18,282 nucleotides of DNA from Bacteroidales bacterium UBA4345. GTDB taxonomy: Bacteria; Bacteroidota; Bacteroidia; Bacteroidales; Paludibacteraceae. The notes beneath the pieces are model-generated. The model saw nothing but the letters and a program-made list of their open reading frames with translations. It had not been told where the DNA came from and did not search any database. Position 1 is the stretch's first letter; each line of letters starts with the position of its first letter. Of the stretch, positions 1 through 18,282 are shown in pieces. The DNA is taken from contig DGTD01000060.1 of NCBI GenBank assembly GCA_002396385.1, positions 1 through 18,282 on the forward strand, in the 5' to 3' direction. The position numbers and the translations under genes were made by a program.

Positions 1-821
1 AGACCTTCGAGAACTACCGCGACGCCAAGAAGGCCTTCTTCGATGCCCTGCCCAAGCATGCCTTTGCCATCACGAACGCCGACGACAAGAACGGCATGAT
101 CATGGTACAGAACACACGAGCCACGGTGAAGACCTACTCGCTACGCTCCGCTGCCGACTACAAGGCACGCATCCTGGAGGAAAGCTTCGAGGGAATGAAT
201 CTGGTGATGGACGGACGCGAAGTGAGCGTACAATTCGTGGGCCGCTTCAACGTAAGTAACCTGCTGGCCGTATATGCCACCGCACTCATGTTGGGCGTGG
301 AACAGGAAGAGGCCCTCATCTTGCTGAGTGTCATGAAACCCGTCAACGGACGCTTCGAGACCATCCGCTCTCGCGAGGGAGTCACTGCCATCGTGGACTA
401 TGCTCACACACCCGACGCCCTGGCCAACGTGCTGAGCACCATCAACGAAGTGCTGCGGCATCGCGGACAGTGCTGGACTGTATGCGGCGCCGGGGGAAAC
501 CGCGACAAGGGAAAACGACCGCTCATGGCACAGGAAGCCGTCAGGAACAGCGACCGCGTGATTATCACAAGCGACAATCCACGCAACGAGGACCCGCAGG
601 AAATCATCAATGACATGCTGGCCGGACTCAGCGAGGACGAGCGACGCCACGTACTGAGCATCGTGGACCGCCGCGAGGCCATCCGCACAGCATGCATGAT
701 GGCACAGCCCGGCGACGTCATCCTGGTGGCAGGCAAAGGGCACGAGGACTATCAGATCATACAGGGAGTGAAACATCACTTCGACGACCACGAAATAATT
801 AAAGAAGCCTTCGGAATATAG
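1..821 (+). CDS. murE: UDP-N-acetylmuramoyl-tripeptide synthetase MurE (5' truncated)
   Basis: The gene is cut by the window edge. The frame is open from base 3 and runs 272 codons to TAG at 819-821, about the last 55% of a typical MurE. MurE adds the third stem-peptide residue to UDP-MurNAc-L-Ala-D-Glu in the cytoplasm, using ATP. The first visible residues read [14 protein letters not shown], a normal internal MurE stretch, so the ATG at 96 is not the true start. The C-terminal ligase domain is clear: a [10 protein letters not shown] motif, a [11 protein letters not shown] motif, and DNPR at 573-584. DNPR is the signature of MurE enzymes that add meso-diaminopimelate, so the wall is probably DAP-type. 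The C-terminal GKGHEDYQ motif is also present. mraY starts 3 bases after the stop, so the two are co-transcribed. The DNA here is GC-richer than the rest of the operon. Confidence 0.97.
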
Positions 822-824
822 AAT

Positions 825-2093: not shown

Positions 2094-2108
2094 AAAACAT
2101 AAACAAAA

Positions 2109-3446
2109 ATGAAAAGGATTGTAGTGTTAGGCGCCGGTGAAAGCGGTGTAGGCTCTGCCATTCTGGCACTGAAAAAGGGTTTCGACGTGTTCGTTTCCGA
2201 CATGTCGGCCATTAAAGACAAATACAAGAAAGAACTCGACCAGTATGGAATCGCTTACGAAGAGAAGCAACATACGGAAGAGCTCATTCTCAACGCCGAC
2301 GAAGTGATAAAGAGTCCGGGTATTCCTGAAACGGCTCCCATGATTGTCAAGTTGCGAGCAAAAGGCATCCACATCATTTCCGAGATTGAATTTGCAGGCC
2401 GCTATACAGGCGACTCGGTAAAGGTGTGCATAACCGGCAGCAACGGCAAGACAACAACTACAACCCTCATCCACCACATTTTCACCAAAGCTGGGCTTGA
2501 CGCATCGCTGGCGGGGAACGTGGGTTTCAGTTTGGCGCGCCAAGTTGCAATTGATCCTCACAAATACTATATCATTGAGCTTAGCAGCTTCCAGCTTGAC
2601 GGTATGTACGACTTTAAAGCCGACTTCGCCATTCTGATGAACATCACACCAGACCATTTGGACCGCTACGACCACAAGTTCCAAAACTACATCGACTCAA
2701 AGATGCGTATCGTCCAGAATATGACTCCAAACGACTACTTCATCTATTGGGATGGTGACCCTATTGTGGCCAAAGAGATAGCGAAACGCGACATTAAGGC
2801 AAAAATGTGTCCGTTCAACATCGACAAAAAAGAGGGGCTGGCCGCTTATATTGAAAACGAACTATTCACAATCAACATCAATAACAAACAAATGAGTATG
2901 GAAAAAGAAAAAATAAGCATCAAGGGGTTGCACAACACCTATAATTCAATGGCTGCCGGCATTACCGCCTTTGCTTCTGGCATTAGCAGCGACAAGGTCA
3001 GGGAAGCGCTAAGCGACTTCCAGGGGGTTGAGCACCGTTTGGAACAAGTTGCCCGTGTGCGTAATGTTTTGTTCATCAACGACTCGAAAGCAACGAACGT
3101 CAACTCTTGCTGGTATGCCCTCCAATGTATGAAGACCCCAGTCGTCCTCATTTTGGGAGGTAAAGATAAAGGAAACGACTACAACGAGATTAAGAGCCTT
3201 GTCGAGGAAAAGGTTCGCGCCCTGGTATTCCTCGGTGTCGACAATACAAAGCTTCACGATTTCTTCGACGGAATGGGCAAACCAACTGCCGATGTCCAGT
3301 CGATGAAGGACGCTGTTGAAAAATCGTTCGAAATGGCGGAGAAGGGAGACACAGTCCTTCTCTCTCCATGCTGCGCAAGCTTCGACCTCTTTATGAGCTA
3401 CGAAGACCGCGGACAACAATTCAAAGAACAGGTAAAGAACCTCTAA
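2109..3446 (+). CDS. murD: UDP-N-acetylmuramoylalanine--D-glutamate ligase MurD
   Basis: MurD is the cytoplasmic ATP-dependent ligase that adds D-glutamate to UDP-MurNAc-L-Ala. The 445-residue length is normal. The N-terminal Rossmann-like domain starts MKRIVVLGAGESG. The ATP P-loop GSNGKTTTTT is at about residues 110-119. The central domain holds ELSSFQL (157-163), TPDHLDRYD (170-178) and K198, which matches the carbamylated lysine of E. coli MurD. GLHNTYN (273-279) and NDSKATN (324-330) mark the boundary and the C-terminal domain, which ends with the family-typical SPCCASFDLFMSYEDRG. The start follows an A-rich leader with no clear Shine-Dalgarno sequence, as is common in Bacteroidota. The gene sits 15 bp after mraY and 19 bp before ftsW. 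Confidence 0.97.
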   Translation: MKRIVVLGAGESGVGSAILALKKGFDVFVSDMSAIKDKYKKELDQYGIAYEEKQHTEELILNADEVIKSPGIPETAPMIVKLRAKGIHIISEIEFAGRYTGDSVKVCITGSNGKTTTTTLIHHIFTKAGLDASLAGNVGFSLARQVAIDPHKYYIIELSSFQLDGMYDFKADFAILMNITPDHLDRYDHKFQNYIDSKMRIVQNMTPNDYFIYWDGDPIVAKEIAKRDIKAKMCPFNIDKKEGLAAYIENELFTININNKQMSMEKEKISIKGLHNTYNSMAAGITAFASGISSDKVREALSDFQGVEHRLEQVARVRNVLFINDSKATNVNSCWYALQCMKTPVVLILGGKDKGNDYNEIKSLVEEKVRALVFLGVDNTKLHDFFDGMGKPTADVQSMKDAVEKSFEMAEKGDTVLLSPCCASFDLFMSYEDRGQQFKEQVKNL

Positions 3447-3465
3447 GCAAACAAACAGACGCCAT

Positions 3466-4722
3466 ATGGTCAAAGAATTCTTGAATAACAACTTCAAAGG
3501 AGACAAGATAATTTGGATTATCTATGCCTGCCTATTGCTGTTTTCGGCGGTTGAAGTATACAGTGCGTCAAGTCATTTGGTCTATGGCAACGTGTTCAAG
3601 GGCGACTACAACGGAGCCATTTTCAAGCATATCGTCTTCTGCTGTATGGGTATAATGACGGCCTTCATCACCCACCAGTTCAAACTCCGGCGATTTGCCA
3701 AGCTTATCACATTTTTTGTTTTTCCCGTTCTTCTTATTTGGGTGGCAGCTTTATCCCTTTCAGGCGGAGGTACAAACGGAGCGGCACGCTGGGACTCCGT
3801 TGCCGGCATCAATATGCAGCCCTCCGAGTTCCTCAAACTGTCGTATGTGGTTGCCGTCGCCTACTTGTTCTCGCGCTACTCCGAGGTTAAGAAGACTTTC
3901 AGCCTTCTAACCTTCTGGCTGGTTCTGCTGGGTGGGCTGACCGTGCTCTGCATTGTCAGGGAAAACGTCTCGAACGCCATCTTGGTAGGGACTACCACCT
4001 GGTTGATTTTCACGCTGGCTTTCAACAAACTGAAATGGCTGGTCTACAGCATCCTCATTGGCGGATTGTTCGTTTTCTCTGTTGTAGAGTTCGCTAAAAC
4101 CGACCTTTTCCAAGATCTCAGGAAGGCCGCCATCAGACAAGACGGTTTCTTAAACCGAGCCGGAACAGCAATGGGACGTCTCGACCGATTTGTCAACGAA
4201 AAAGAACCGGGGGAAGAGGGTTTTACCCTGAACGATAAAAACTTCCAATCGGTCCACGGCAAAGTGGCAATTGCAAACAGCTGGGGCATAGGCGTTTTCC
4301 CCGGCAGGAGCAAAGAGCGCGACGTGCTGCCGGAAGCCTTTTCCGACTTCATTTATGCCATCATAATCGAAGAAACCGGACTTTTGGGAGGTGGTTTTGT
4401 TCTTCTGCTCTATATCGTCTTACTCTACAGGGTAGGCCGCATCATAGCAAAATGCAACAACAGGTTTTGCGCCATTGTGGCGGCAGGCCTGTGCATGATG
4501 ATGATTTTGCAGGCGCTTATCAACACATCGGTGGCTGTTGGACTTATTCCGGTAACCGGACAACCGCTTCCCCTCATCAGTCGCGGAGGAACCTCGGCTG
4601 TAGCCGTTAGTGCCTACTTCGGCATCATTATCGGCATTTCGAGGTTTGAATGCAACAACGAAGAAAAAGACGGTGATGCTGTTGAGGACATTGAACCTCA
4701 AAACATTATAAACGAAACTTAA
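3466..4722 (+). CDS. ftsW: Septal peptidoglycan glycosyltransferase FtsW (SEDS family)
   Basis: FtsW is an integral membrane SEDS protein that polymerises lipid II glycan strands at the septum with its partner transpeptidase FtsI; ftsI would be expected upstream of murE, outside the window. The 418-residue protein has about ten hydrophobic segments. Family motifs are QPSEFLKL (118-125), the large extracytoplasmic loop at about 210-290 ending in DVLPEAFSDFIYA, and PLPLISRGGTS (367-377). D294 in the FSDFIYA segment corresponds to the essential aspartate of this loop in other SEDS enzymes (E. coli FtsW D297). The C-terminal tail is short, acidic and cytoplasmic. The start at 3466 lies 19 bp after murD; the overlapping reverse-strand frames are not genes. 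Confidence 0.96.
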   Translation: MVKEFLNNNFKGDKIIWIIYACLLLFSAVEVYSASSHLVYGNVFKGDYNGAIFKHIVFCCMGIMTAFITHQFKLRRFAKLITFFVFPVLLIWVAALSLSGGGTNGAARWDSVAGINMQPSEFLKLSYVVAVAYLFSRYSEVKKTFSLLTFWLVLLGGLTVLCIVRENVSNAILVGTTTWLIFTLAFNKLKWLVYSILIGGLFVFSVVEFAKTDLFQDLRKAAIRQDGFLNRAGTAMGRLDRFVNEKEPGEEGFTLNDKNFQSVHGKVAIANSWGIGVFPGRSKERDVLPEAFSDFIYAIIIEETGLLGGGFVLLLYIVLLYRVGRIIAKCNNRFCAIVAAGLCMMMILQALINTSVAVGLIPVTGQPLPLISRGGTSAVAVSAYFGIIIGISRFECNNEEKDGDAVEDIEPQNIINET

Positions 4723-4760
4723 ACCATAAGACAAAAAGGACTTTTTACATTTAAAAGACA

Positions 4761-5870
4761 ATGGAAACGAAAAAACATAAATTCATTATAAGCGGCGGCG
4801 GAACCGGCGGGCACATTTTCCCTGCCGTTTCAATTGCCAACGCACTCAAAGCAAAAGAACCAGACGCTGAATTTCTGTTCGTAGGAGCGGAAGGGCGTAT
4901 GGAGATGGAGAAAGTACCACAAGCCGGCTACAACATCAAAGGGCTGCCTGTTGTGGGACTCAACCGTAAAAATCCGCTCCAATGGATTTCTTTCGCATGG
5001 AAGTTCTTTAAGAGCAAACGTACGGCGAAACAGATTGTAAAGGATTTCGCCCCCGATGCCGTAGTAGGCGTGGGCGGATACGCCAGTGCGCCAACTCTCG
5101 ATGCGGCGAATGCGTTGGGCATCCCTACATTCCTGCAAGAACAAAACTCTTTTGCGGGGAAGGCAAATAAAATGCTGGCTAAAAACGCAAAAAAAATATG
5201 TGTGGCCTACGAGGGCATGGAGCGCTTCTTCCCGAAAGATAAAATTATCCTTACGGGCAACCCTGTCCGTCAGAATTTGATGGACGTACCGTTCAAGGAT
5301 GCGGATGCGCTGAAGGCGTTCAACCTCGACCCTGCAAAAAAGACACTGCTGATTATTGGCGGCAGCCTTGGTGCCCGCACAGTAAACAACAGCGTCATCG
5401 GCGGTTTGCAGAAGTTGAAAGACGCCGGAATCCAAATAATCTGGCAAACTGGCAAATTCTACTACGAGGCATCGAAAGTGGAAGCCGACAAAAGCAACAA
5501 TCCACTGTTGGACTGTACCGCATTCGTAAAGAATATGGACCAAGCCTACGCTGTGGCTGACCTTGTGGTTTCCAGAGCCGGTGCTAGTTCCATTTCCGAA
5601 CTGTGCCTATTAAAAAAGCCTTGTGTGTTGGTTCCTTCGCCTAACGTGGCAGAAGACCACCAGACAAAGAACGCGTTGGCGCTTTCAACGAAAGGTGCTG
5701 CCATTCTCGTAACCGATGCCGAAGCCGAAGCAAAACTTATTGACACGGTTATCGAACTGATTAATAACGACCAGCAACTGGCATCCCTAAGTGAGAACAT
5801 CGGCAAGCTCGCCCAACTGGACTCTGCGGCACGCATTGCCGACATAATAATTAACGAAATAAAGAAATAA
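4761..5870 (+). CDS. murG: UDP-GlcNAc:lipid I N-acetylglucosaminyltransferase MurG
   Basis: MurG is a GT28 enzyme at the cytoplasmic face of the inner membrane that adds GlcNAc to lipid I, giving lipid II. The 369-residue length is normal. Seen in order: the N-terminal G-loop SGGGTGGHIFPA (11-22) with the catalytic-site histidine H18, the GVGGYAS segment (103-109), LQEQNSFAGKAN (125-136), the second G-loop GGSLGAR (200-206), and SRAGASSISEL (271-281) in the UDP-GlcNAc pocket. It follows ftsW by a 38-bp A/T-rich gap, the longest inside the operon, and precedes murC by 35 bp. No promoter box that I trust is visible in either gap, so it is probably transcribed with its neighbours. Confidence 0.97.
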   Translation: METKKHKFIISGGGTGGHIFPAVSIANALKAKEPDAEFLFVGAEGRMEMEKVPQAGYNIKGLPVVGLNRKNPLQWISFAWKFFKSKRTAKQIVKDFAPDAVVGVGGYASAPTLDAANALGIPTFLQEQNSFAGKANKMLAKNAKKICVAYEGMERFFPKDKIILTGNPVRQNLMDVPFKDADALKAFNLDPAKKTLLIIGGSLGARTVNNSVIGGLQKLKDAGIQIIWQTGKFYYEASKVEADKSNNPLLDCTAFVKNMDQAYAVADLVVSRAGASSISELCLLKKPCVLVPSPNVAEDHQTKNALALSTKGAAILVTDAEAEAKLIDTVIELINNDQQLASLSENIGKLAQLDSAARIADIIINEIKK

Positions 5871-5905
5871 CCGCCCTTTTCTAACGGGCAAAAAAGGAAC
5901 TGACT

Positions 5906-7288
5906 ATGACCAATATGCTGGATAAAATAAGGAACATCTACTTCCTGGGCATTGGTGGCATTGGCATGAGTGCCTTGGCGCGCTACTTCAATGCCAAAGG
6001 CTACCAAGTGGCCGGATACGACCGCAATGAATCGGAACTCGTTATGGAGTTGGAACGTGAAGGCATACAAATCCACACCGACGACAACACCGATTTTATC
6101 GCAGCCGACTATAAGAATCCGAACTACACCCTGGTGGTGTACACCCCAGCAATTCCCGACGACATGACCGAATTCGTCTTTTTCAAGAAGAACGGATTTA
6201 CGATTATGAAGCGGGCGCAAGTGTTGGGCGAGATTACCCGCTCACAGCGCGGAATTTGCATAGCAGGTACCCACGGCAAAACAACCACCTGTACGCTCAC
6301 CAGCCACATACTCAACCAGAGCAAAGTAGGTTGCAGTGCGTTTTTGGGCGGCATATCGAAAAATTTCGATAAGAACATACTCATCAACAACCAAAACGAC
6401 TTGGTTGTAATCGAGGCTGATGAATTTGACCACTCGTTCCTCACTTTGGCGCCTTATATGGCTGTAATCACCTCGACCGACGCCGACCACCTCGACATCT
6501 ATAAGACGGAAGACGAATACCGCAAGGCTTTCGAAGACTTTTCTTCATTAGTCCGGCAGGGCGGCACCCTTATCGTCAAAAAAGGGTTGCCGATAAAGCC
6601 GCGTACCAAACAAAACGTCCGCATCCTCACTTACTCAGTAGAGGAAGGCGACTTCCATGCCGAGAATATCCGCATCGGGGACGGGGAAATAACGTTCGAT
6701 TTCATACATCCAACCGGCAAGATTTGCAATATCCAACTGGGCGTTCCCGTCTACATCAACATCGAGAATGGTATTGCAGCAATGGCCCTTGCCCTACTCA
6801 ATGGGGCAAGTTACGACGAGATACGCAACGCAATGGCCAGTTACAAAGGGGTCAAACGCCGCTTCGACATCCACATGAAAACCAAAGAGCTGACCATTAT
6901 TGACGACTACGCCCACCATCCGGCAGAGTTGAAGGCCAGCATAGAGTCAATCAAGCGTGTTTATCCCGACAAGAAGCTAACCGGCATTTTCATGCCGCAC
7001 CTGTATAGCCGCACCCGGGATCTGGCCGACAACTTCGCAAAAAGTCTGTCGATGCTCGACGAAGCCATCCTGCTGCCTATTTATCCGGCACGCGAAGAAC
7101 CGATACCCGGAGTGACTAGCGAATGGCTGGCAGGCAAGGTAACAGCACCTATCGTCAAAGTTCTCGACAGTAACAGTTTGGTCAGCTACCTAAAGGAGAA
7201 CAGAGAACGCATAGAACTTGTTGCCACATTGGGTGCAGGCGATGTCGACCAACTCATTCCACAAATAGCAGAGGCATTAAAGAAATAA
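5906..7288 (+). CDS. murC: UDP-N-acetylmuramate--L-alanine ligase MurC
   Basis: MurC is the cytoplasmic ATP-dependent ligase that adds L-alanine to UDP-MurNAc, the first amino-acid step. The 460-residue length is normal. The N-terminal UDP-binding motif IYFLGIGGIGMSALA begins at residue 11. The ATP P-loop GTHGKTTT is at 121-128, EADEFDHSF at about 170-178, TDADHLD at 191-197, and the C-terminal domain has DDYAHHPAEL and MPHLYSRTRD. An AAAAAGGAA stretch at 5891-5899 lies about 7 bases before the ATG at 5906 and may help initiation; an in-frame ATG three codons later is an alternative start. ftsQ follows after 6 bp, so the two are probably co-translated. Confidence 0.97.
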   Translation: MTNMLDKIRNIYFLGIGGIGMSALARYFNAKGYQVAGYDRNESELVMELEREGIQIHTDDNTDFIAADYKNPNYTLVVYTPAIPDDMTEFVFFKKNGFTIMKRAQVLGEITRSQRGICIAGTHGKTTTCTLTSHILNQSKVGCSAFLGGISKNFDKNILINNQNDLVVIEADEFDHSFLTLAPYMAVITSTDADHLDIYKTEDEYRKAFEDFSSLVRQGGTLIVKKGLPIKPRTKQNVRILTYSVEEGDFHAENIRIGDGEITFDFIHPTGKICNIQLGVPVYINIENGIAAMALALLNGASYDEIRNAMASYKGVKRRFDIHMKTKELTIIDDYAHHPAELKASIESIKRVYPDKKLTGIFMPHLYSRTRDLADNFAKSLSMLDEAILLPIYPAREEPIPGVTSEWLAGKVTAPIVKVLDSNSLVSYLKENRERIELVATLGAGDVDQLIPQIAEALKK

Positions 7289-7294
7289 CAGTCA

Positions 7295-8053
7295 ATGAAC
7301 GGGAAAGTGAAGCAAATAGCAAAGAAGGTGGTTACCGCAATGGCTTTTACAGCCGCTGCGGCTTACATCGTTTATGCTATTCTACACTTCAACCGCGAAC
7401 GCGACAATTCGCTCTGTATGGGGGTAGAGGTTGCCATTATGGACAGTTGCGACATTCAATTCATTCACCCCGGCGATGTTAGGAACGTGATAAAGGACCT
7501 GGAGCCCGACCTTGCGGGGAAGAATATGAACAGCCTCAACACCACAGAAATTGAACGCATCTTGGTTAGGCGGCTGATTGCCATTAAGGACGTGGAAGTC
7601 TACAAGACCCCCGAGAGCAAATTGCGCATCAATATCTGGCAAAGGCATCCGGTTCTGCGTATCGTTAAAAATACAGGATACGATTGTTACATTGACAGTG
7701 AAGGCGACCCGATGCCCATTCCCAGCCTAGACCCGGCCTACGTGCCAATCGCAAGTGGCTTCATCAGCGACACCTTCGCGACCAACACACTCTACAAGTT
7801 TGCAAAATTTCTCCAAAAAGATAAATTTTGGAATGCGCAGATAGAGCAGATTTACGTTAAATATAATGGAGACGTCAACCTGGTTCCAAGAGTGGGCGGT
7901 CAGATTATCGAGATGGGGAAACTGACCAACTACGAGGAAAAACTGGAAAAACTGGAAAAAGTCTACACCGAGGCTTTCCCCGAGAAAGGTTGGAGCAACT
8001 ACTCTACCATTAACTTGAAATTCGACCAACAGGTCATATGTACGAAGAAATAA
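7295..8053 (+). CDS. ftsQ: Cell division protein FtsQ/DivIB
   Basis: This is a bitopic inner-membrane division protein of the FtsQBL complex, which links early and late divisome steps. The 252 residues begin with a short basic cytoplasmic tail (MNGKVKQIAKK), then one transmembrane helix at about 12-31, then a periplasmic part. A POTRA-like domain spans roughly residues 40-112, with the pattern IHPGDVRNVI, a serine/asparagine-rich turn, and a strand ending KLRINIWQRHPVLRIV. The rest fits the FtsQ beta domain and includes CYIDSEGDPMPIP. Sequence conservation in this family is low, so the call rests on topology, the POTRA-like segment and the position between murC (6 bp) and ftsA (14 bp), which is standard for Bacteroidota. 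Confidence 0.9.
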   Translation: MNGKVKQIAKKVVTAMAFTAAAAYIVYAILHFNRERDNSLCMGVEVAIMDSCDIQFIHPGDVRNVIKDLEPDLAGKNMNSLNTTEIERILVRRLIAIKDVEVYKTPESKLRINIWQRHPVLRIVKNTGYDCYIDSEGDPMPIPSLDPAYVPIASGFISDTFATNTLYKFAKFLQKDKFWNAQIEQIYVKYNGDVNLVPRVGGQIIEMGKLTNYEEKLEKLEKVYTEAFPEKGWSNYSTINLKFDQQVICTKK

Positions 8054-8067
8054 AAAAGGATTAAGAT

Positions 8068-9411
8068 ATGAGCAAGAAAGACGGACAAACAGTCATTACT
8101 CCAGCAAAAACCGATATGGGGATTTTTGTTGCGCTCGACCTTGGGGGAACTGAGGTAAGGGCAATTGCTGCCAAGAAAGACGACCAAGGGAAATTTGTAT
8201 TTGTCTCTTCCGCATCCACACCGTCAAGAGGCATACGCCGTGGCGCCATCTACAACATTGAGGACACAAAGAACGACATAAAACACGTTCTCACCGACTT
8301 GGAAAACAGTATCAAAACCCAGTACAACAAAACCATTGACGACATCTATGAAAAAATTAATGTCCGCATCGAACAGGTTTATGTGGCACTTAACGGCAAT
8401 TCCCGTACCGAGACAAACAACATAAGCCGTCGCTTGGGTGGCGACATCATCAATAAGGAACTGTTTGAGGAATTCGACCGGTTGAACCACAATATAAAGC
8501 TCAGTAGTAACGACCTTGAGATTCTAGACATATATCCATCTAAATATCTGGTTGACGACAGCGAACCTACCAACAATCCGATAGGCTGCCGGTGCGACGT
8601 CATTTCCGCTACCTACAAAATCGTTGTAGGAAAGTCGACAATGCTAAGCAACCTGCGTGTCTGTCTGCAAAGCATAGGCGTTGAACTAGCCGGCTACTGC
8701 ATAGCGCCACTGGCTGCGGCAAACTCGGTCTTGTCGAAAAACGAGAAAGAATTGGGCGTAGTGCTGATCGACTTCGGCGCAACCACAACCAATGTGGCCA
8801 TCTACCACAAAAACAAGATGCACTACTCACTGTCTATTCCGTTAGGAAGCAAACTCATTACCGACGACATTTCACAACTGCGAATTGTTACAGATGAAGC
8901 AGAGAAAATCAAAAAGATTGGGAATTGCCACCTCGACTGGAACATCGAAGACCGATACATCGGCCTTTCAACAGGAAACGACATCAGCTACAAAGTTGTA
9001 TGCAACGTCATAGAGCGCAGAATTGACCAGATTCTCGGATACATCGACCTGGCTATAAAAGAGTCGAAACTGGCAGTCGGCCCACAACTCGACCAGGTTG
9101 TAATTGTAGGAGAAGCAGCCAAGTTGAAGGGGCTGGAGGGGAAAATAGAAGAAACCCTGGGTCTGCCAGCACACAAGGGCAGCATACACGCCAACTACCA
9201 GCATCTGATACCGCAGGAAAAGAATGGATGCAGGTTCCATGTCGCCATAGGAACGCTTTTGAACGCAAAAGAAAACTGTGTGGTTTCGACCAAGCAGAAC
9301 GAGCGTCCTCAAAAAAAGACCACTATTTTTGGCAAACTGAAAGACTTCGGAACCTCACTATTCGATGACGAGCTTCCAGAAGAAAGGAATCAGAAAAGAA
9401 ACCAGTATTAA
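8068..9411 (+). CDS. ftsA: Cell division protein FtsA, actin-like membrane anchor, divergent
   Basis: FtsA is the actin-fold protein that tethers FtsZ filaments to the membrane and recruits later division proteins. The 447 residues show an actin-like core with the inserted 1C domain at about 65-180, a second phosphate motif DFGATTT (235-241) followed by NVAIY, and IPLGSKLITDDI (257-268). A C-terminal segment at about 417-434 (KTTIFGKLKDFGTSLF) alternates hydrophobic and charged residues and could be the membrane-targeting amphipathic helix. Two nucleotide-site motifs differ from what I recall as usual: phosphate-1 reads DLGGTEV (24-30) rather than a GSSK-type motif, and the adenosine motif reads VGEAAKL (347-353) rather than a GGGA type. 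It sits 14 bp after ftsQ and 37 bp before the first ftsZ. Confidence 0.93.
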   Translation: MSKKDGQTVITPAKTDMGIFVALDLGGTEVRAIAAKKDDQGKFVFVSSASTPSRGIRRGAIYNIEDTKNDIKHVLTDLENSIKTQYNKTIDDIYEKINVRIEQVYVALNGNSRTETNNISRRLGGDIINKELFEEFDRLNHNIKLSSNDLEILDIYPSKYLVDDSEPTNNPIGCRCDVISATYKIVVGKSTMLSNLRVCLQSIGVELAGYCIAPLAAANSVLSKNEKELGVVLIDFGATTTNVAIYHKNKMHYSLSIPLGSKLITDDISQLRIVTDEAEKIKKIGNCHLDWNIEDRYIGLSTGNDISYKVVCNVIERRIDQILGYIDLAIKESKLAVGPQLDQVVIVGEAAKLKGLEGKIEETLGLPAHKGSIHANYQHLIPQEKNGCRFHVAIGTLLNAKENCVVSTKQNERPQKKTTIFGKLKDFGTSLFDDELPEERNQKRNQY

Positions 9412-9448
9412 ATAGACAACCTTCCATTAACATAAAAATTATACGAGC

Positions 9449-10849
9449 ATGGAAATTGAATTGAACGACGAGGTAAACAAACCAATCATAAAAGTAATTG
9501 GTGTAGGAGGTGGTGGAGGCAATGCCGCCAACTTCATGTTCCGGAAAGGTATACACGATGTGGGTTTTGTTGTTTGTAACACCGACAAAAAGGCATTAGC
9601 CCTTTCACCTATTCCACAAAAAATACAGATGGGAGACAAAGGTCTCGGAGCCGGAAACAAGCCGGAAGTCGGCAGACAAGCCGCAATCGACTCCCTTCCT
9701 GAGATAGAGTCCATGCTTGAAGACGACATCGAAATGGTGTTTGTCACTGCCGGAATGGGAGGTGGAACTGGAACAGGCGCAGCCCCTGTCATAGCCAAAG
9801 CAGCTAAAAACAAGGGCATCCTTACTGTGGGTATTGTTACCATTCCTTTCGTCTTCGAAGGAGAGAACCGGTTGTCGCAGGCCTTGGAAGGTGTAGAAGA
9901 GATGCGAAAGAGCGTCGATGCCATCATCATCATCACCAACGAGCGAATCAAACAGCTCTATGGCGACATGAAGATTTCGCAAGCATTCTCGCAAGCCGAT
10001 ACCGTTTTGGCCACAGCCGCGAAAGGTATTGCCGAACTGATAACCCTGACAGGCTACATCAACGTAGATATGAACGACGTGCGCACAGTCCTTACCAACA
10101 GCGGAGATGCCATTATGGGTTCGGCTATTGCTAGTGGAGAGGGGCGTGCCATTCAAGCCATTCAAAACGCATTGGAGTCTCCGCTACTCACCAACAACGA
10201 CATCAGTAAATCGGGAAATGTTTTATTGAATATTTCGTCAGGTGTCGACGAATACGAGGCCGATATGTCGGAAATCAGCGAGATTACAGAATACCTCCAA
10301 CAGAAACTGAGGAAGGGGGCACAAATCATTTGGGGTTGCAACACATCGGAAGAACTCGGCGAGAATTTGCAAGTCACTATTGTTGTAACTGGCCTGCATC
10401 TTACCGACGACGAGTTGAAAGAAACAAAAGCAAGCACAAAACCGGCTAGCAAACCTGCCAATGGCAGTTTTATGGACAAGCTCTTCAACATGTCGCCCAA
10501 AGAGCCTGAAAAGAAGCCTGCCACCAACTTCGACCGCGAGCCAGAAAAATTAACCGACGAGCAGAAATCGAAGTTAAGCAACGCTTTCTACGGCTGCGAT
10601 GTATTCAACAAGGAACAAACGAAACCGGCTGAGCCTGTCAAACAGCAGCCTGTAACTCCAACAGCAACAGTTGCGCCTGTACAACAACCTGCCGTTGAGC
10701 CCGAAGAGCCAAAACCTGTAAAGCCAGCACCTAAGAGATGTTCGCTCGACGACCTGTTCAACGACAACAGCCTTGACGACATGGAACGTTCTTCCAATCC
10801 GAAGAAGAACGACAGCGACGACAGCATACAAACATTCACTTTACAATAA
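9449..10849 (+). CDS. ftsZ: Cell division GTPase FtsZ, first copy (catalytically canonical)
   Basis: FtsZ is the tubulin-like GTPase that forms the division ring. This 466-residue copy has a short N-terminal arm of about 11 residues, then GVGGGGGNA (18-26), a canonical GLGAGNKPEVGRQAA loop, the tubulin signature GGGTGTG (104-110), IPFVFEGENR with R141 in place, and a T7 loop NVDMND carrying N205, D207 and D210. All visible GTP binding and hydrolysis positions are therefore conserved. The globular part ends near residue 315. The roughly 150-residue tail is proline/lysine/glutamine-rich, hence probably disordered, and includes a CSLDDLFNDN motif (431-440). It ends DSIQTFTLQ, which does not resemble the Bacteroidota FtsZ terminal peptide that I recall. 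A second ftsZ starts 12 bp downstream. I call this copy FtsZ1. Confidence 0.97.
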   Translation: MEIELNDEVNKPIIKVIGVGGGGGNAANFMFRKGIHDVGFVVCNTDKKALALSPIPQKIQMGDKGLGAGNKPEVGRQAAIDSLPEIESMLEDDIEMVFVTAGMGGGTGTGAAPVIAKAAKNKGILTVGIVTIPFVFEGENRLSQALEGVEEMRKSVDAIIIITNERIKQLYGDMKISQAFSQADTVLATAAKGIAELITLTGYINVDMNDVRTVLTNSGDAIMGSAIASGEGRAIQAIQNALESPLLTNNDISKSGNVLLNISSGVDEYEADMSEISEITEYLQQKLRKGAQIIWGCNTSEELGENLQVTIVVTGLHLTDDELKETKASTKPASKPANGSFMDKLFNMSPKEPEKKPATNFDREPEKLTDEQKSKLSNAFYGCDVFNKEQTKPAEPVKQQPVTPTATVAPVQQPAVEPEEPKPVKPAPKRCSLDDLFNDNSLDDMERSSNPKKNDSDDSIQTFTLQ

Positions 10850-10861
10850 AAACTTATCGGA

Positions 10862-12223
10862 ATGAGTGACACCTACTTAAACATAGTACAACCCGAACTG
10901 GCCGAAACGGCTTTCGAGACAGCCATCATAAAGGTGGTTGGCGTGGGCGGAGGAGGAGGTAACGCTGTAAACTACATCTACAAGAGAAAAATTGCAGGTG
11001 TCAGTTGTGCTGCTATTAATACCGATGCTAAGTCACTCCAACAACTCGGTCTTCCACAAAAGCTTCCTATTGCGAAACTTGGTTCTGGCGCAGATCCTGC
11101 CATCAGTAAAAAGGCGGCAGAAGAACACGAAGAGGAAATCAAGTTCTTGCTAAAAGGTTCTGAAATGGCTTTCATAACAGCAGGAATGGGGAAAGGGACC
11201 GGCACGGGAGCATCGCCTGTCATTGCCCGCTTTGCCCAAGAGTTAGGTATACTCACAATAGGTGTTGTGACCATTCCATTCCGATTCGAGGGCGAGAAGT
11301 TTGTACTGCGCGCCATAGAAGGTTTAGAGGAACTACGCCAACATGTTGACTCGTTGCTCATTATCGCTAACGAACAAATCAAGAGCGTTTACGGCAATAT
11401 GAAGTTCAGCCAGGCTTTCGGACGTGCCGACGACATTATTGCAACAGCCATCAACGGCATTACTGGAGCCGTAACCAGCACACAGGGGGTTTGCACCGAT
11501 ATGGAGGACCTGCGTACCACCCTGAAAGGCGGACAAAATATTATGATGGGTGTAGGCATTGGCGACGGCCCCGACCGCGCTATCATCGCCATTCGAAACG
11601 CCCTTGAATCTCCATTGCTAGTTAACAACAGCATAAAAGGAGGTAAGAGGATAATTATAAACTATGCCACATCGTATGAGAACGAAATGACCGTTGAGGA
11701 AATGGAGATTATCAACGACGAGCTGAAGAACCAAGTCGGCTACTATGGCGACCAAATATGGGGTACACTATTCGACGACTCGTTGGGCACACAGCTAAAA
11801 GTCACCATTGTCGTATCGGGTATTAAAGGCATCAGCAACGAACAGATAAAAGAGATGACTTTGGGCAACAATATCCGTCCACACGCACAACCAAAAATTG
11901 CAGAGCCCGCGATTAACTCGACGGCTAGCCCGGACACGGTTGCGAACAAATTCACGACTGCGACAAATACCCCGACTGTGGCAACTGAAGCTGTAGGTGC
12001 GGCACAACAAGCTCAACAGATACAGACACTGATCGAAGAACGCCCACCCAAAAAGATTGTTTCTCTTACAGACTTCGACGACGACAATTACCTTTCCAGA
12101 TTAGAAGACGACGCTCCAAACTGGAATTGCACCTCACAATTCAACAACAATTCGGCATTTGTCGGGAACAATCCCGACCAGCCAATTCTACATAACGATT
12201 TTCTAGACAACAACGTTGATTAA
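10862..12223 (+). CDS. Second FtsZ paralogue with altered GTPase site (FtsZ2)
   Basis: This 453-residue FtsZ homologue aligns with the upstream FtsZ over the whole globular part at roughly 40-50% identity by eye. It has a 20-residue N-terminal extension, then GVGGGGGNA (27-35). Three nucleotide-site positions differ: the tubulin signature reads GKGTGTG with K111 for glycine, FEGEKF has F147 where FtsZ has arginine, and the T7 loop reads CTDMED with C211 for asparagine. The two T7 aspartates (D213, D216) remain. The loop after NTD is also shortened to LGSGADPAISKKAA. The globular part ends near 321; a roughly 110-residue A/T/Q/P-rich linker follows, then SLTDFDDDNYL (401-411) and the terminus DFLDNNVD. 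The frame is intact and spacing is operonic on both sides (12 bp each), so this is an expressed paralogue, not a pseudogene. Hydrolysis is predicted to be weak or absent; that part is inference. Confidence 0.95.
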   Translation: MSDTYLNIVQPELAETAFETAIIKVVGVGGGGGNAVNYIYKRKIAGVSCAAINTDAKSLQQLGLPQKLPIAKLGSGADPAISKKAAEEHEEEIKFLLKGSEMAFITAGMGKGTGTGASPVIARFAQELGILTIGVVTIPFRFEGEKFVLRAIEGLEELRQHVDSLLIIANEQIKSVYGNMKFSQAFGRADDIIATAINGITGAVTSTQGVCTDMEDLRTTLKGGQNIMMGVGIGDGPDRAIIAIRNALESPLLVNNSIKGGKRIIINYATSYENEMTVEEMEIINDELKNQVGYYGDQIWGTLFDDSLGTQLKVTIVVSGIKGISNEQIKEMTLGNNIRPHAQPKIAEPAINSTASPDTVANKFTTATNTPTVATEAVGAAQQAQQIQTLIEERPPKKIVSLTDFDDDNYLSRLEDDAPNWNCTSQFNNNSAFVGNNPDQPILHNDFLDNNVD

Positions 12224-12235
12224 AAAAATAAAATT

Positions 12236-12685
12236 ATGGCACTATTTGAACAAGTCAGTAAAGACATCATGCAGGCCATGAAGGATCGTGACCAAGTACG
12301 CCTCACCACCCTACGTGGCATAAAAAAGGAATTTATTGAAGCCAAAACTGCTAAAGGCTCCGATGGTGAAATGAGCGATGAAACAGGATTGAAGATTCTT
12401 CAGAGAATGTTGAAACAACGCAAAGAGAGTGCTGAAATATACACCCAAAACGGGCGAAACGAGCTGGCTCAGAACGAACTGGCCGAAACTGCGGTCATTG
12501 AGTCATACCTGCCGAAGCCAATGAGTGACGAGGAACTGACTGCCGCCGTTAAAGCCATCATTGCCGAGACTGGCGCCACATCTGTAAAAGAAATGGGTAA
12601 GGTAATGGGCATTGCATCAAAGCAATTAGCTGGGAAAGCCGAAGGTAAAGCCATTTCCGATAAGGTGAAGGAACTCCTCGCCTAA
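12236..12685 (+). CDS. GatB/YqeY domain protein
   Basis: This 149-residue, highly charged cytoplasmic protein matches the YqeY family (GatB/YqeY domain), which is related to the tRNA-binding tail of the amidotransferase subunit GatB. Recognisable features are the N-terminal MALFEQVSKDIMQAMKDRDQVRLTTLRGIKKEF helix, an EQ/K-rich helix with RMLKQRKESAEIY, ESYLPKPMSDEEL in the middle, and the C-terminal EMGKVMGIASKQLAGKAEGKAISDKVKELL, which is the family's QRD-like module. The exact role is unsettled; a link to tRNA-dependent amidation or translation quality control is usually assumed. It is the last gene of the operon, 12 bp after the second ftsZ and 35 bp before the terminator stem. Confidence 0.93.
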   Translation: MALFEQVSKDIMQAMKDRDQVRLTTLRGIKKEFIEAKTAKGSDGEMSDETGLKILQRMLKQRKESAEIYTQNGRNELAQNELAETAVIESYLPKPMSDEELTAAVKAIIAETGATSVKEMGKVMGIASKQLAGKAEGKAISDKVKELLA

Positions 12686-12720
12686 CTCTTAGTTAGCCAT
12701 TCAAATACTATAAAAGTAAC

Positions 12721-12763
12721 AAAGAGGGTGTATCACAAACATATGTGATATACCCTCTTTTTC
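12721..12763 (+). terminator. Rho-independent terminator of the dcw operon
   Basis: The arms at 12721-12737 and 12744-12760 pair over 17 positions with a single G-U wobble, enclose a 6-base loop, and run into a T-rich stretch (12758-12763). It lies 35 bp after the yqeY-type stop and before minus-strand genes, so it may stop transcription from both sides, although the minus-strand U-run is weaker. Confidence 0.93.
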
Positions 12764-12773
12764 TATCGCAGTG

Positions 12774-12803
12774 CAAAGGTATTCGGTATGGGGAAAAGAC
12801 CTA
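12774..12803 (-). promoter_or_regulatory. Bacteroidota-type promoter with no obvious gene
   Basis: On the minus strand, TACCTTTG (12781 down to 12774) matches the Bacteroidota -7 box TAnnTTTG. A TTGT is found 21 bases upstream, fitting the -33 element. Transcription would start near 12767 and immediately enter the hairpin at 12760-12721. No credible ORF follows on this strand: the region beyond is the 3' end of the yqeY-type gene in antisense. It could be the promoter of a lost gene or of a short RNA. Confidence 0.45.
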
Positions 12804-12845
12804 CAACTTCACCGGATTTCCTATATATTTCTTACTGAAAACTAG

Positions 12846-12923
12846 TTAGACGTATGAATTAAATGCGTTGGTGGACATTACCACAGCATCTAGGAACGTC
12901 AACAAGACGACGAGCAGGATCAT
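12846..12923 (-). CDS. Hypothetical 25-residue hydrophobic peptide overlapping the barstar-like stop
   Basis: A short open frame starts at an ATG that overlaps the TGA of the barstar-like gene in an ATGA arrangement typical of coupled translation. It encodes MILLVVLLTFLDAVV followed by MSTNAFNSYV and a TAA stop. The first half is hydrophobic enough to insert in a membrane. There is no family match that I recognise, and an ORF this short occurs often by chance. It may equally be the leftover end of another gene. The rest of the gap to the terminator holds only the promoter-like box at 12774-12803. Confidence 0.2.
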   Translation of the reverse strand: MILLVVLLTFLDAVVMSTNAFNSYV

Positions 12924-13318
12924 TCTTCTACATAATACACATTAAATACTAAATTTGGATGTAAATTTTTGTACCCAAACTCATCATTTAGGCCATCCCA
13001 AAAATCTGAAGCATCATTAAGACAACTCGTCAGTATTTCTTTTTCCGATATTTTCTCTTCAGCAAGTATATTATCTGAATTCCTAACGATTATCAAAATC
13101 TGATTGACCGAAATGTCTAACCATTCCAAATCATGTAAACATTCATCTAATGCATCCCAGTTTTTTCCAAAATAGTCTGGAAAATTTAATTCTTTTGATA
13201 TAAATGAAAAAAAGACCTCCTTGTTAACCATTTTGTTTCCATCTACATCAATTATAATATTCCGTTTTTTATTTGTTTCAAGAGTAATATCTCTAATATC
13301 AGCTACTTTGTGTATCAT
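12920..13318 (-). CDS. Barstar-like ribonuclease inhibitor
   Basis: This 132-residue protein belongs to the barstar family, small cytoplasmic proteins that bind and block barnase-type ribonucleases. Diagnostic is the segment at 44-66: LNFPDYFGKNWDALDECLHDLEW, where Y49, D55 and E59 occupy the positions of barstar Y29, D35 and D39, the barnase-binding helix; D39 is replaced by the similar glutamate. The preceding strand IIIDVDGNKMVNKEVFFSFISKEL is also typical. The protein extends beyond the usual ~90 residues with an acidic C-terminal part. No cognate nuclease gene is adjacent. The DNA is clearly AT-richer than the neighbouring operon (about one third G+C by eye), suggesting acquisition by transfer. 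A truncated Rpn-type frame ends 7 bases upstream on the same strand. Confidence 0.85.
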   Translation of the reverse strand: MIHKVADIRDITLETNKKRNIIIDVDGNKMVNKEVFFSFISKELNFPDYFGKNWDALDECLHDLEWLDISVNQILIIVRNSDNILAEEKISEKEILTSCLNDASDFWDGLNDEFGYKNLHPNLVFNVYYVEE

Positions 13319-13325
13319 TTTGGGC

Positions 13326-13520
13326 TTATTTCATTCTTTTGAAAGTCTTATGGCAGATATATTCGATATCAACCACTTTTACCCCGTCCCAGAACGGCAG
13401 CAGCGCATTCAGGAAGCTGATAACAAGGTCGGGGTGTTCTGCGAACACCGGCTTAAAAGTCAACTCGCATCTCAGTTCCAAGTATTTACCTATAGTTCGA
13501 TTAGTTTTAAAGTTAACCAT
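13326..13520 (-). pseudogene. N-terminal remnant of a Rpn-family PD-(D/E)XK nuclease/putative transposase
   Basis: A 64-residue frame reads KYLELRCELTFKPVFAEHP at residues 12-30, then DLVISFLNALLPF and VVDIEY. This matches the start of the Rpn/PD-(D/E)XK 'putative transposase' family widespread in Prevotella and Bacteroides, whose members are usually about 250-350 residues. The match stops after IEY; then come about ten unrelated residues (ICHKTFKRMK) and a stop, with the catalytic part of the nuclease absent. The barstar-like gene begins 7 bases later, so the junction may mark where foreign DNA replaced the rest of the gene. The fragment could still be translated and act as a leader for the barstar-like gene, but it cannot be a working nuclease. 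Confidence 0.65.
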
Positions 13521-13618
13521 TCACTTCAAATACACGAAAGAGGGGAAAGAAGGTAAAGCCCTTGCCGTTTGTGGTCCTTTCAGAGCATCGAAAAGTCCCT
13601 AGTTCTTCACCTAATCAA

Positions 13619-14428
13619 TTACTTGCAACCGTATTTAGCTTCGAAATCCATCACCACTTTTTTGAGATGCTCGGACAAATATCCCATACCTTTTTCCCTG
13701 ATAGCTTCAGGTATACCAAAAAGGGCTTCGGCAATTCCACCAGTAATGCAACCGATTGTATCGGAATCGCCACCAATACTGACCGCATTACGGACCGCAT
13801 CTTCAAAATTTTCAGCCTCAAGGGCACAAGTAATAGCTTGAGGAACACTGCCTTGACAGGTTCCCCCAGACACAAGTCCGTCTAACCCCTGCCATGAGTA
13901 GCGCGGACGGATTTCATCTACACTTAACGACAGGTCATAGCCAAAGTCCGACTCAATTCTAGCTCTTATTTCCGACGGTGTAGACCCATGTCGTGCCAGA
14001 TAGATACAAAGGGCCGTCGCTTGGGCACCCTTTATGCCCTCGGGATGGTTGTGGGTACATTCAGCAGAAGCCTTTGCGGCAGCCAACGTCTCCGCCTCAG
14101 AAGGGAAAGCCCAACCAACAGGAGAGACACGCATACCCGAACCATTTCCACAACTGTTATAGGGTTGCATAACGCCACTATTTGCACGATGGACCCATTG
14201 TACGAACATCGTTCCATAACTGCCCATCGGGCACGGGTATTTTTTTGCATAACGGAAATAATACGAACCTGCCAGGCCTCCGTGCAACAACCATTCGGCA
14301 GTTGCAACCGTCAAAATACTGTCGTCTGTATATTCCACACCTCTACCAAAGAACTCAAAATCTTTTGTTTTGATGTTGTCAAACTCATAAATCGAGCCCA
14401 CAATATCGCCAACAAGCGCTCCTAACAT
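13619..14428 (-). CDS. ADP-ribosylglycohydrolase family protein (DraG-type)
   Basis: This 269-residue protein belongs to the ADP-ribosylglycohydrolase family (DraG/ARH), metal-dependent enzymes that remove ADP-ribose from modified proteins or small molecules. The metal-site motifs are present in order: the N-terminal GALVGDIVGSIYEF (3-16), YTDDS (33-37), the HNHPEG segment (126-131), and SIGGDSDT (217-224) followed by the helix IGCITGGIAEALFGIP. No signal peptide is seen, so it is cytoplasmic. The substrate cannot be told from sequence. Relatives act in nitrogenase control, in reversal of toxin-mediated ADP-ribosylation and as immunity proteins to ADP-ribosyltransferase toxins. It starts 36 bp after the BspA-like gene on the same strand and has its own TAnnTTTG box in that gap; 98 bp separate it from the Rpn remnant. 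Confidence 0.92.
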   Translation of the reverse strand: MLGALVGDIVGSIYEFDNIKTKDFEFFGRGVEYTDDSILTVATAEWLLHGGLAGSYYFRYAKKYPCPMGSYGTMFVQWVHRANSGVMQPYNSCGNGSGMRVSPVGWAFPSEAETLAAAKASAECTHNHPEGIKGAQATALCIYLARHGSTPSEIRARIESDFGYDLSLSVDEIRPRYSWQGLDGLVSGGTCQGSVPQAITCALEAENFEDAVRNAVSIGGDSDTIGCITGGIAEALFGIPEAIREKGMGYLSEHLKKVVMDFEAKYGCK

Positions 14429-14447
14429 AATTATAATAATTTAAGTA

Positions 14448-14455
14448 CAAATCTA
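14448..14455 (-). promoter_or_regulatory. Candidate -7 box for the ADP-ribosylglycohydrolase gene
   Basis: On the minus strand the bases read TAGATTTG, an exact fit to TAnnTTTG. It is 20 bases from the ATG at 14428, implying a leader of roughly 12 bases. I see no convincing -33 element, so the gene may instead or additionally be read from the upstream LRR gene. Confidence 0.4.
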
Positions 14456-14464
14456 AAAGACACA

Positions 14465-15649
14465 TTAATAATTAGTACCATAAGGTCGGTAAGTAGCACG
14501 CTCGCGATATATAAATTGGAAGTTAGTCCAATCCTCGGCATGTTTGTACGCGTCAACGGCATAATACTTCACATAAAGCGTCGACTTCTCAAAAACTTTT
14601 TGTACGAAAGCGTTCGCTCCTACTTTCGGAGGTTTTGTTCCAAACAAATGGATAGAAGTCAGCAAATCGCATTCAGTAAATGCCTCCTCGCCAATTTCCG
14701 TCAAAGTTCTCGGAAGAGAAACGTTCTTTAACTCAGTACACCCAGCAAACGCCCTGTTCCCAATTTCGTCTACTCCATCGGGAATAACAATATTAGCAAG
14801 AGAGGAACAGTTTTCGAACGCATGATTGCCAATACGCTTCATTTTTTTCGGCATTGTCACCTGTCGAAGGCTGCTACAGCCACTAAAAGTACCCGACTCA
14901 ATGACATCGATAGATTTTGGAATCGATATGGAAACCAATCGGTTGCACTCTTGGAACGCATAACGACGAATTTCCACCAAATCTTTTGGCAAAACAACCG
15001 ACACCAAATCTTTACAATTTGAAAAAGCACCGGCCCCAATAGTAGTGGTATTAGCCGGCAACGAGAACGACTGTTCAGTCTTCCCGGCAGGATATGCAAT
15101 CAGCCGGGTCCAGTTCTTCGAGAACAAGACGCCGTTCACATCTACATAGTCTTTGTTAGCGACATCCACAACAATACTTTTCAGCGCCCAGTTGTGCCAA
15201 AAAGCGCCGTCACCTATTTCAGAGACAGAAGCCGGGATAACAAGCCTTGTCAATCCCGTACAGTAGTTGAAAGCCTCCACACCTATACTCGTAACTTTGT
15301 CGGGAATGTTGATAGCTGAAAGATTTCTACAACCATAGAAAGCCTTGTAACCTATAGTTCGCAAAGAAGCAGGCAACGTTATCCTTGCAACATCTTCACA
15401 ATCGGCGAATGCAAAATCACCAACGGCTTTAACCACAAAAGGTCGTCCTTCAATCGTCAACTGCTGCGGTAACAGTAAGTCGCCCTCCGCTTTTTTATCG
15501 CACTTCACCAGTTCAACGCCATCACTGTCTATAATACGGTAGGTGAAAACACCGTCAACAAAAGACTTTCCACTCTGCTGTCCATAAGCAAAAGTAGAAC
15601 AAGCGAGTACAAATAAAAGGAAGGATAATGTTCTGTATAGATTGTTCAT
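14465..15649 (-). CDS. Secreted BspA-type leucine-rich repeat protein
   Basis: This 394-residue protein has an N-terminal signal peptide (MNNLYRTLSFLLFVLACSTFAYG), with likely cleavage after G23. A cysteine at 17 in VLAC is a poor lipobox, so a lipoprotein is possible but less likely. Residues about 75-335 are tandem 23-residue BspA/Treponema-type repeats (LRR_5) of the form IGxxAFxxCxxLxxIxLPxSLxx, interrupted near 165-190 by the common island GVLFSKNWTRLIAYPAGK. The end (VKYYAVDAYKHAEDWTNFQFI) is the usual capping segment. Such proteins sit on the surface or are exported and bind host or environmental polymers. There is no type IX sorting domain. It is transcribed divergently from the xylanase gene, with 259 bp between starts. 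Confidence 0.92.
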   Translation of the reverse strand: MNNLYRTLSFLLFVLACSTFAYGQQSGKSFVDGVFTYRIIDSDGVELVKCDKKAEGDLLLPQQLTIEGRPFVVKAVGDFAFADCEDVARITLPASLRTIGYKAFYGCRNLSAINIPDKVTSIGVEAFNYCTGLTRLVIPASVSEIGDGAFWHNWALKSIVVDVANKDYVDVNGVLFSKNWTRLIAYPAGKTEQSFSLPANTTTIGAGAFSNCKDLVSVVLPKDLVEIRRYAFQECNRLVSISIPKSIDVIESGTFSGCSSLRQVTMPKKMKRIGNHAFENCSSLANIVIPDGVDEIGNRAFAGCTELKNVSLPRTLTEIGEEAFTECDLLTSIHLFGTKPPKVGANAFVQKVFEKSTLYVKYYAVDAYKHAEDWTNFQFIYRERATYRPYGTNY

Positions 15650-15674
15650 TTTCTATTTCATTGAATTGTTTGCA

Positions 15675-15682
15675 CGAAGATA
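15675..15682 (-). promoter_or_regulatory. Candidate -7 box for the BspA-type LRR gene
   Basis: On the minus strand the bases read TATCTTCG, one base off TAnnTTTG, placed 25 bases before the ATG at 15649. The position is right for a short leader, but no well-spaced -33 box is seen. Confidence 0.3.
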
Positions 15683-15832
15683 ATCATTTTTCACTCAATA
15701 GGCGCACTCAGCCACTAAGATTATTGGAGAACAACGGTAAACGCAATAAGCCAACACATTAGAAAAAAACGTTGACTGAAATATTACAATACAATGAAAG
15801 AAAATTTCAACAACCAATTCCCTGTTAGCGCA

Positions 15833-15840
15833 TAAATTTG
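15833..15840 (+). promoter_or_regulatory. Candidate -7 box for the GH10 xylanase gene
   Basis: TAAATTTG is an exact fit to TAnnTTTG. Transcription would start near 15847, giving a leader of about 60 bases before the ATG at 15909. A TTTC about 24 bases upstream is a poor -33 match. The remaining 259-bp divergent gap shows no operator, repeat or ORF that I can support. Confidence 0.42.
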
Positions 15841-15908
15841 CCGTGTTGATGAACATAAAATTCGACACTAACTAACACATATCAAGTTACACTTAAAAGT
15901 TTATTGCC

Positions 15909-18023
15909 ATGAAACAATCTTTACTAACTACAATTGCTATAGCTCTGACATTGGGGACTACAGCAAACGCACAACTCGCAAAAGATGTGAGAAGCTGCAA
16001 ATTTTTAGGAAACATTACTACGACTAAGGACTGGTCGACAGGAGAGCAAGTTGACTGGAACGATTGTAAGCTAACATTTTCAGATTATTGGAACCAGGTT
16101 ACCTGCGAGAACGCCACCAAATGGGGTTCGGTACACCAAAGTTGGGGTAAATTCAACTGGGGAAGTGCAGACAAGACCCATGACTACTGTAAGCAGAAAG
16201 GCATCTTGTTCAAATTTCACGCCTTGATATGGGGTAGCCAGCATCCTACATGGATTGAAAATTTGAGCGTCGACGAAACCAAAAAGGCCATCATTGAATG
16301 GTACGACGAGGTAGCAAAGCACTACCCCGACCTCCAGATTATCGACGTAGTTAACGAAGCCATCTATTCAGGCGGAGATTATCACTCTCCATACAAACAG
16401 ACGAAAATCATCCAGGCTTTAGGTTCTCTTGCAGAAGACAGAGCACAAAAAGAGACCGGCAACCGTCCGAGCTACAACTGCAGTACCAACGGCTACCCTA
16501 ACACGAACTCGTACCAGTGGATTGCCGAGGCCTTCCGTCTGGCTCGCGAACGCTGGCCTGAAGCCATTTTGATTTACAACGACTACAACACCTTCCAGTG
16601 GCAGAAGACCGAGTTCATCAACCTCATCAACGGTTTGAAAGCCTGCGGCGCCCCAATTGACGCTGCTGGAAACCAGGCTCACGACTTGAACGACATGAGC
16701 GGATCCCAGTTCAAAAGTGCCTTGGAAGATATCCACAACAAAACCCAGTTGCCACAGTACATTACCGAGTACGACATAGCAAAGAAAAACGACGCCACTT
16801 TCGAGACCCGTTACAAAGAACAATTCCCTGTAATGTGGGAAGCCGACTATGTGGCAGGTGTAACTCTTTGGGGTTGGATTTACGGTCACACTTGGGTAAA
16901 GGACGGCGGAGATAACGGAGCTTCTGGCCTTGTGAGGAACTGCCAGAAACGTTCTGCTTTCACTTGGCTTGAGCAATATATGAGATCTGATGCGGCTATT
17001 AACGCCAAAAGTCCTCTCTGTGTAGGCCAGGCAGCCAAAGGTGTAACAGTCAAACTCTCCGTTACATCCGAGACCATTTCTGTTGGCGACGAGGTTGGCT
17101 TCCAAGTGGAGGCTTCTTCTAAAGCCGGGAATGTAAACCACATCGAGGTGTACGTTAACGACGAACTGATCGAAGACAAAGGAAACGTAAATTCGTACTC
17201 AGGTACATTTGCCCCTACAGATGCAGGTGTTTACGAAATAAAAGTCATTGCTTACGACGACAAGAACGAGTCGGCAGAAAAAACGGCCAAAGTAACTGTT
17301 TGCGCCCAGAAAGCACCTTACGGAGGCACCGCGGCTAAAATACCAGGTACAATTGAAGCCGAAAACTTCGATGAAGGCTGCGAGGGCATTGCATACCACG
17401 ACACAGACGACGGGAACGAAGGAAAAGAATACAGACAGACAGGTATTGACGTGGTTACTGGCAATAACAGCTATGCCATAGGCTACACTGCAAAGGGCGA
17501 ATGGACTGACTACTCTGTCAACGTCATCTGCGACGGAACCTACGATATTACCGCATACGTAGCATCGGGCAGCGGCAATTCCGGTTTCACGGTTAGCGCT
17601 ATTGAGAACGGCCAAACATACGCTGAAACCCAAACGATAGAAGCCCCTCAAGGAGAAGACTGGGACACCTATTCAGCCATAAAGACCTCCATCAACCTTC
17701 GCAAGGGAGAGCAAACCATACGCTTCAGCATCGTTGGTCCTTACATCAACATAGACAAAGTCACCTTCGACAATTCTGATTGCGAGACTTTATTCGATGC
17801 GACTCCAAGCTCAAGCATCAGCATATATCCATCTCCTGCCACTAACCACATCAGCGTTAGCGGAGTTGAAGAAGCAGGTTTGAAATTGATAGACAGTACA
17901 GGTAGGGCAATTGCCACATCTTCTTCTACCGAACTAGACATTCCTGAAACCTGCAAAGGAGTTTATACGCTTATTATAAGTACCGACAACAATGTTATAG
18001 TAAAGAAGATTGTAATAAAATAA
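15909..18023 (+). CDS. Secreted GH10 endo-1,4-beta-xylanase with Ig-like, CBM6 and T9SS sorting domains
   Basis: This 704-residue modular enzyme is predicted to cut the xylan backbone outside the cell. A signal peptide covers residues 1-21 (cleavage near ANA-QL). The GH10 barrel spans about 25-360: WGSVHQSWGKFNW (72-84), FKFHALIWGSQHP (101-113), acid/base E150 in DVVNEA, YNDYN (223-227), GNQAHDL (254-260), nucleophile E287 in ITEYDI, and LWGWIYGHTW (320-329). An extra stretch between E150 and the next conserved helix (about 170-200) lengthens a loop beside the active site. An Ig-like domain follows at about 378-466, then CBM6 at about 470-622, starting IPGTIEAENF and ending YINIDKVTF. Residues 636-704 (SISIYPSPATNHISV ... 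VKKIVIK) are a type A T9SS C-terminal sorting domain. No SusC/SusD pair or other carbohydrate gene is next to it in the window. Confidence 0.95.
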   Translation: MKQSLLTTIAIALTLGTTANAQLAKDVRSCKFLGNITTTKDWSTGEQVDWNDCKLTFSDYWNQVTCENATKWGSVHQSWGKFNWGSADKTHDYCKQKGILFKFHALIWGSQHPTWIENLSVDETKKAIIEWYDEVAKHYPDLQIIDVVNEAIYSGGDYHSPYKQTKIIQALGSLAEDRAQKETGNRPSYNCSTNGYPNTNSYQWIAEAFRLARERWPEAILIYNDYNTFQWQKTEFINLINGLKACGAPIDAAGNQAHDLNDMSGSQFKSALEDIHNKTQLPQYITEYDIAKKNDATFETRYKEQFPVMWEADYVAGVTLWGWIYGHTWVKDGGDNGASGLVRNCQKRSAFTWLEQYMRSDAAINAKSPLCVGQAAKGVTVKLSVTSETISVGDEVGFQVEASSKAGNVNHIEVYVNDELIEDKGNVNSYSGTFAPTDAGVYEIKVIAYDDKNESAEKTAKVTVCAQKAPYGGTAAKIPGTIEAENFDEGCEGIAYHDTDDGNEGKEYRQTGIDVVTGNNSYAIGYTAKGEWTDYSVNVICDGTYDITAYVASGSGNSGFTVSAIENGQTYAETQTIEAPQGEDWDTYSAIKTSINLRKGEQTIRFSIVGPYINIDKVTFDNSDCETLFDATPSSSISIYPSPATNHISVSGVEEAGLKLIDSTGRAIATSSSTELDIPETCKGVYTLIISTDNNVIVKKIVIK

Positions 18024-18043
18024 GGCAAAAACAACAACTTTCT

Positions 18044-18079
18044 AAAAGAGCTGGCTCGCGACGAGTCGGCTCTTTTTTT
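18044..18079 (+). terminator. Rho-independent terminator after the xylanase gene
   Basis: The arms at 18044-18058 and 18062-18076 pair over 15 positions with two G-U wobbles around a 3-base loop, followed directly by a run of T (18073-18079). It lies 20 bp after the xylanase stop, so that gene is probably monocistronic. Confidence 0.93.
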
Positions 18080-18225
18080 GGACCCTCAAATCCGCAAATA
18101 GCTTAGATTTGAAATGGATTAGGATATTGCAAATTATTTGGTAACCATACAAACTATAATACGGCCTCTTTCCGAACCAGTGTCCTGTTCCATAAACTCA
18201 GTTCGCAATGTTATCCCTTAATTGT

Positions 18226-18253
18226 TAAATTTGTAGTTATAAGAAAAAGGAGG
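18226..18253 (+). promoter_or_regulatory. Candidate promoter box and strong Shine-Dalgarno sequence for the last gene
   Basis: TAAATTTG at 18226-18233 is an exact TAnnTTTG match, and AAGGAGG at 18247-18253 lies 4 bases before an ATG at 18258. Together they mark a new transcription unit with a very short leader. A full Shine-Dalgarno sequence is unusual in Bacteroidota, where most genes in this window lack one. The stretch 18080-18225 between terminator and promoter shows nothing else. Confidence 0.55.
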
Positions 18254-18257
18254 CACA

Positions 18258-18282
18258 ATGGGCTTGTATTTGAATCCGAACG
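18258..18282 (+). CDS. Start of a further gene (3' truncated), possibly AAA-ATPase-like/PD-(D/E)XK family
   Basis: Only eight codons are in the window: MGLYLNPN. The start is supported by the Shine-Dalgarno sequence 4 bases upstream and the promoter box before it. The opening resembles the MGxYLNPGN start that I recall for the 'AAA-ATPase-like' proteins with a C-terminal PD-(D/E)XK nuclease domain (DUF1703 group), common in gut Bacteroidota and Firmicutes. Eight residues cannot prove this. Confidence 0.4.

Follow-up and report, generated by a model that had tools for sequence, protein, structure and literature searches.

Two distinct, adjoining ftsZ genes in the division operon of a genus of uncultured gut Bacteroidales

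We examined an 18,282-nucleotide stretch of the genome of Bacteroidales bacterium UBA4345 (contig DGTD01000060.1, positions 1 to 18,282; hereafter the window), in which, as in its whole genus of uncultured gut bacteria, two distinct ftsZ genes adjoin in the division operon. A prior reading of the sequence alone had proposed two tandem, diverged ftsZ genes at this position, and the proposal is confirmed, the two proteins being 43% identical. The features of the locus are:

8068..9411, + strand, ftsA, directly upstream of the ftsZ pair (NCBIfam TIGR01174, above cut-off)
9449..10849, + strand, first ftsZ
9758..9778, + strand, segment inside first ftsZ
10061..10078, + strand, segment inside first ftsZ
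10463..10489, + strand, segment inside first ftsZ
10784..10810, + strand, segment inside first ftsZ (by eye; PAYxR pattern absent)
10862..12223, + strand, second ftsZ
11192..11194, + strand, segment inside second ftsZ
11492..11509, + strand, segment inside second ftsZ
12104..12130, + strand, segment inside second ftsZ (by eye; PAYxR pattern absent)
12176..12220, + strand, segment inside second ftsZ
12236..12685, + strand, yqeY-like gene, directly downstream of the ftsZ pair (flanks the array in 6/6 genomes of the genus)

Both proteins possess the tubulin GTPase domain, the FtsZ_C domain and the T7 catalytic aspartates of bacterial FtsZ, for which the canonical reference was TIGR00065 with PF00091 and PF12327; the NCBIfam ftsZ equivalog score of 295.2 bits was one criterion applied for membership. 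A pattern search found the conserved C-terminal PAYxR-type peptide in none of the 12 FtsZ proteins of the genus. The pair shares the tubulin superfamily with the FtsZl1 family (Tubulin_2, PF13809), treated in PMC2875224, and has no PF13809 match. A Tubulin_2 (FtsZl1-like) protein is encoded elsewhere in the window's genome (L003, G000:C69:7721-11038); the gene preceding it has a product that, on visual inspection, resembles a protein with a von Willebrand A domain, although it has no Pfam match.

The sequence-only reading had raised the concerns that the second copy might be confined to this assembly or under relaxed selection (a ratio of nonsynonymous to synonymous substitution, dN/dS, near 1). 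Neither is the case: adjacent copies, judged by coordinates, occur in all six genomes of the genus (g1), and dN/dS is low for the tandem copies. As that reading had asked for in support, the second copies form a conserved clade of their own, the paralogs falling in separate genus-wide clades, and motif and tail differ consistently between them.

A search of 358 genomes of family f1 gave an ftsZ match in 341. By the same measure of adjacency, tandem copies were present in 8 of 9 genomes of g19 (the remaining one stops at a contig end), 9 of 16 of g27, 1 of 2 of g5 and none of the 4 of g4. In an even draw of 393 genomes across the order Bacteroidales, 378 had a match and 41 more than one, and the copies were adjacent in at least 20, namely the window genome and 19 from families f16, f23, f32, f69, f72, f85 and f106; this is a lower bound, as scoring covered no more than four candidates in each genome and contig-end pieces occur among the matches. 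Four of these 20 carry triple rows (three in f32, one in f69), and in another Bacteroidales genome (G548) yqeY lies between the ftsZ copies. An even draw across the phylum (247 genomes, 246 with a match) included 244 from outside Bacteroidales; in the 19 multi-match genomes among these, the matches were unlinked copies or pieces, and in none were copies adjacent. The tandem arrangement is real, conserved and more widespread than had been supposed.

Several observations accompany this survey. At four loci of families f32 and f69 (L091, L092, L093 and L094), ftsA is followed by three ftsZ genes in a row, of which only the third encodes a PAYxR peptide or VD tail, while the first and second proteins end in amphipathic stretches. 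In two g27 genomes (L064 in G342, L070 in G348), the sole ftsZ found is highly diverged, lies directly 3' of ftsA and is altered in its tail and T4 neighbourhood. Family f136 (e.g. G819, G945, G827) has a second and at times a third full-length FtsZ homolog on other contigs or at a distance, and g15, g29 and family f81 (L053, L055; G437, G540, G628) have unlinked short FtsZ-like open reading frames of ~230-270 aa that span the GTPase part only.

Bacteria are usually pictured with one FtsZ, as in PMC11285052, or with an extra copy away from the division and cell wall (dcw) cluster, as a published survey (PMC9871819) describes for the few bacteria that have two ftsZ genes. The extra FtsZs of Agrobacterium and Bipolaricaulota resemble the present case in number, but that survey places the extra copy outside the cluster rather than inside it. 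According to PMC13170164, A. tumefaciens has three FtsZ homologs, of which one is essential and only one has a full linker and C-terminal peptide. Chloroplasts likewise have two co-resident FtsZs; in land plants, according to PMC11285052, FtsZ2 has kept and FtsZ1 has lost interaction with the adaptor ARC6, and the FtsZ1 C-terminus binds membrane. In the Odinarchaeota, PMC12583498 describes SepF as tethering FtsZ2 by the C-terminal tail and FtsZ1 as tethered by an amphipathic helix of its own. However, the archaeal FtsZ1/FtsZ2 duplication (Odinarchaeota, Haloferax) is very old, according to PMC9871819, whereas duplication here is recent and repeated.

The tandem pair is probably a variant of this known dual-FtsZ arrangement. 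Its paralogs retain different working parts, as if a pair of specialists rather than one generalist built the ring. The earlier suggestion of a co-encoded, two-subunit ring is upheld in part: a conserved tandem pair, probably of the dual-FtsZ kind, stands, and a heteropolymer would be plausible.

The copies could instead be redundant, serving dosage, or one could be decaying, without division of labour. Extra ftsZ matches are indeed unlinked or fragmentary in some other genomes of the family, but the paralogs are only 43% identical, fall in separate genus-wide clades, show low dN/dS and differ consistently in motif and tail. These results already contradict the explanation, which we consider highly improbable. 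Somewhat less remote, though still unlikely, is that the division machinery co-evolves rapidly, perhaps in conflict with phage that target FtsZ or with rival proteins. The second copy would then serve as a spare or a decoy, and the split features would reflect drift. In keeping with this, FtsA, FtsQ, FtsW, FtsZ and the FtsI-like protein diverge far more across the clade than do Mur enzymes encoded in their operon, and ftsZ duplication is repeated.

Recurrent arrays with split C-terminal elements offer natural experiments on the roles of FtsZ core, linker and tail, and bear on why chloroplasts and many archaea employ two FtsZs. They also highlight the VD tail, a motif conserved at the end of FtsZ in Bacteroidota, for which the literature consulted names no partner. 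Among the best-ranked open-licence papers, none treated tandem ftsZ in Bacteroidales by title or abstract, which is weak evidence of novelty.

The faster-diverging division genes lie at 3466-4722 and 7295-9411 of the window, with relatives, and at L140:5113-7251; FtsW, FtsQ, FtsA and the FtsI-like protein outpace the Mur enzymes of their operon in the genus and neighbour genera. Downstream in the window are a barstar-like gene (12920-13318, - strand) and an ADP-ribosylglycohydrolase gene (13619-14428, - strand), then genes for a BspA-type leucine-rich-repeat protein (14465-15649, - strand) and a GH10 xylanase that also carries CBM6 and a Por secretion tail (15909-18023, + strand), the last two fitting a fibre-degrading gut bacterium.
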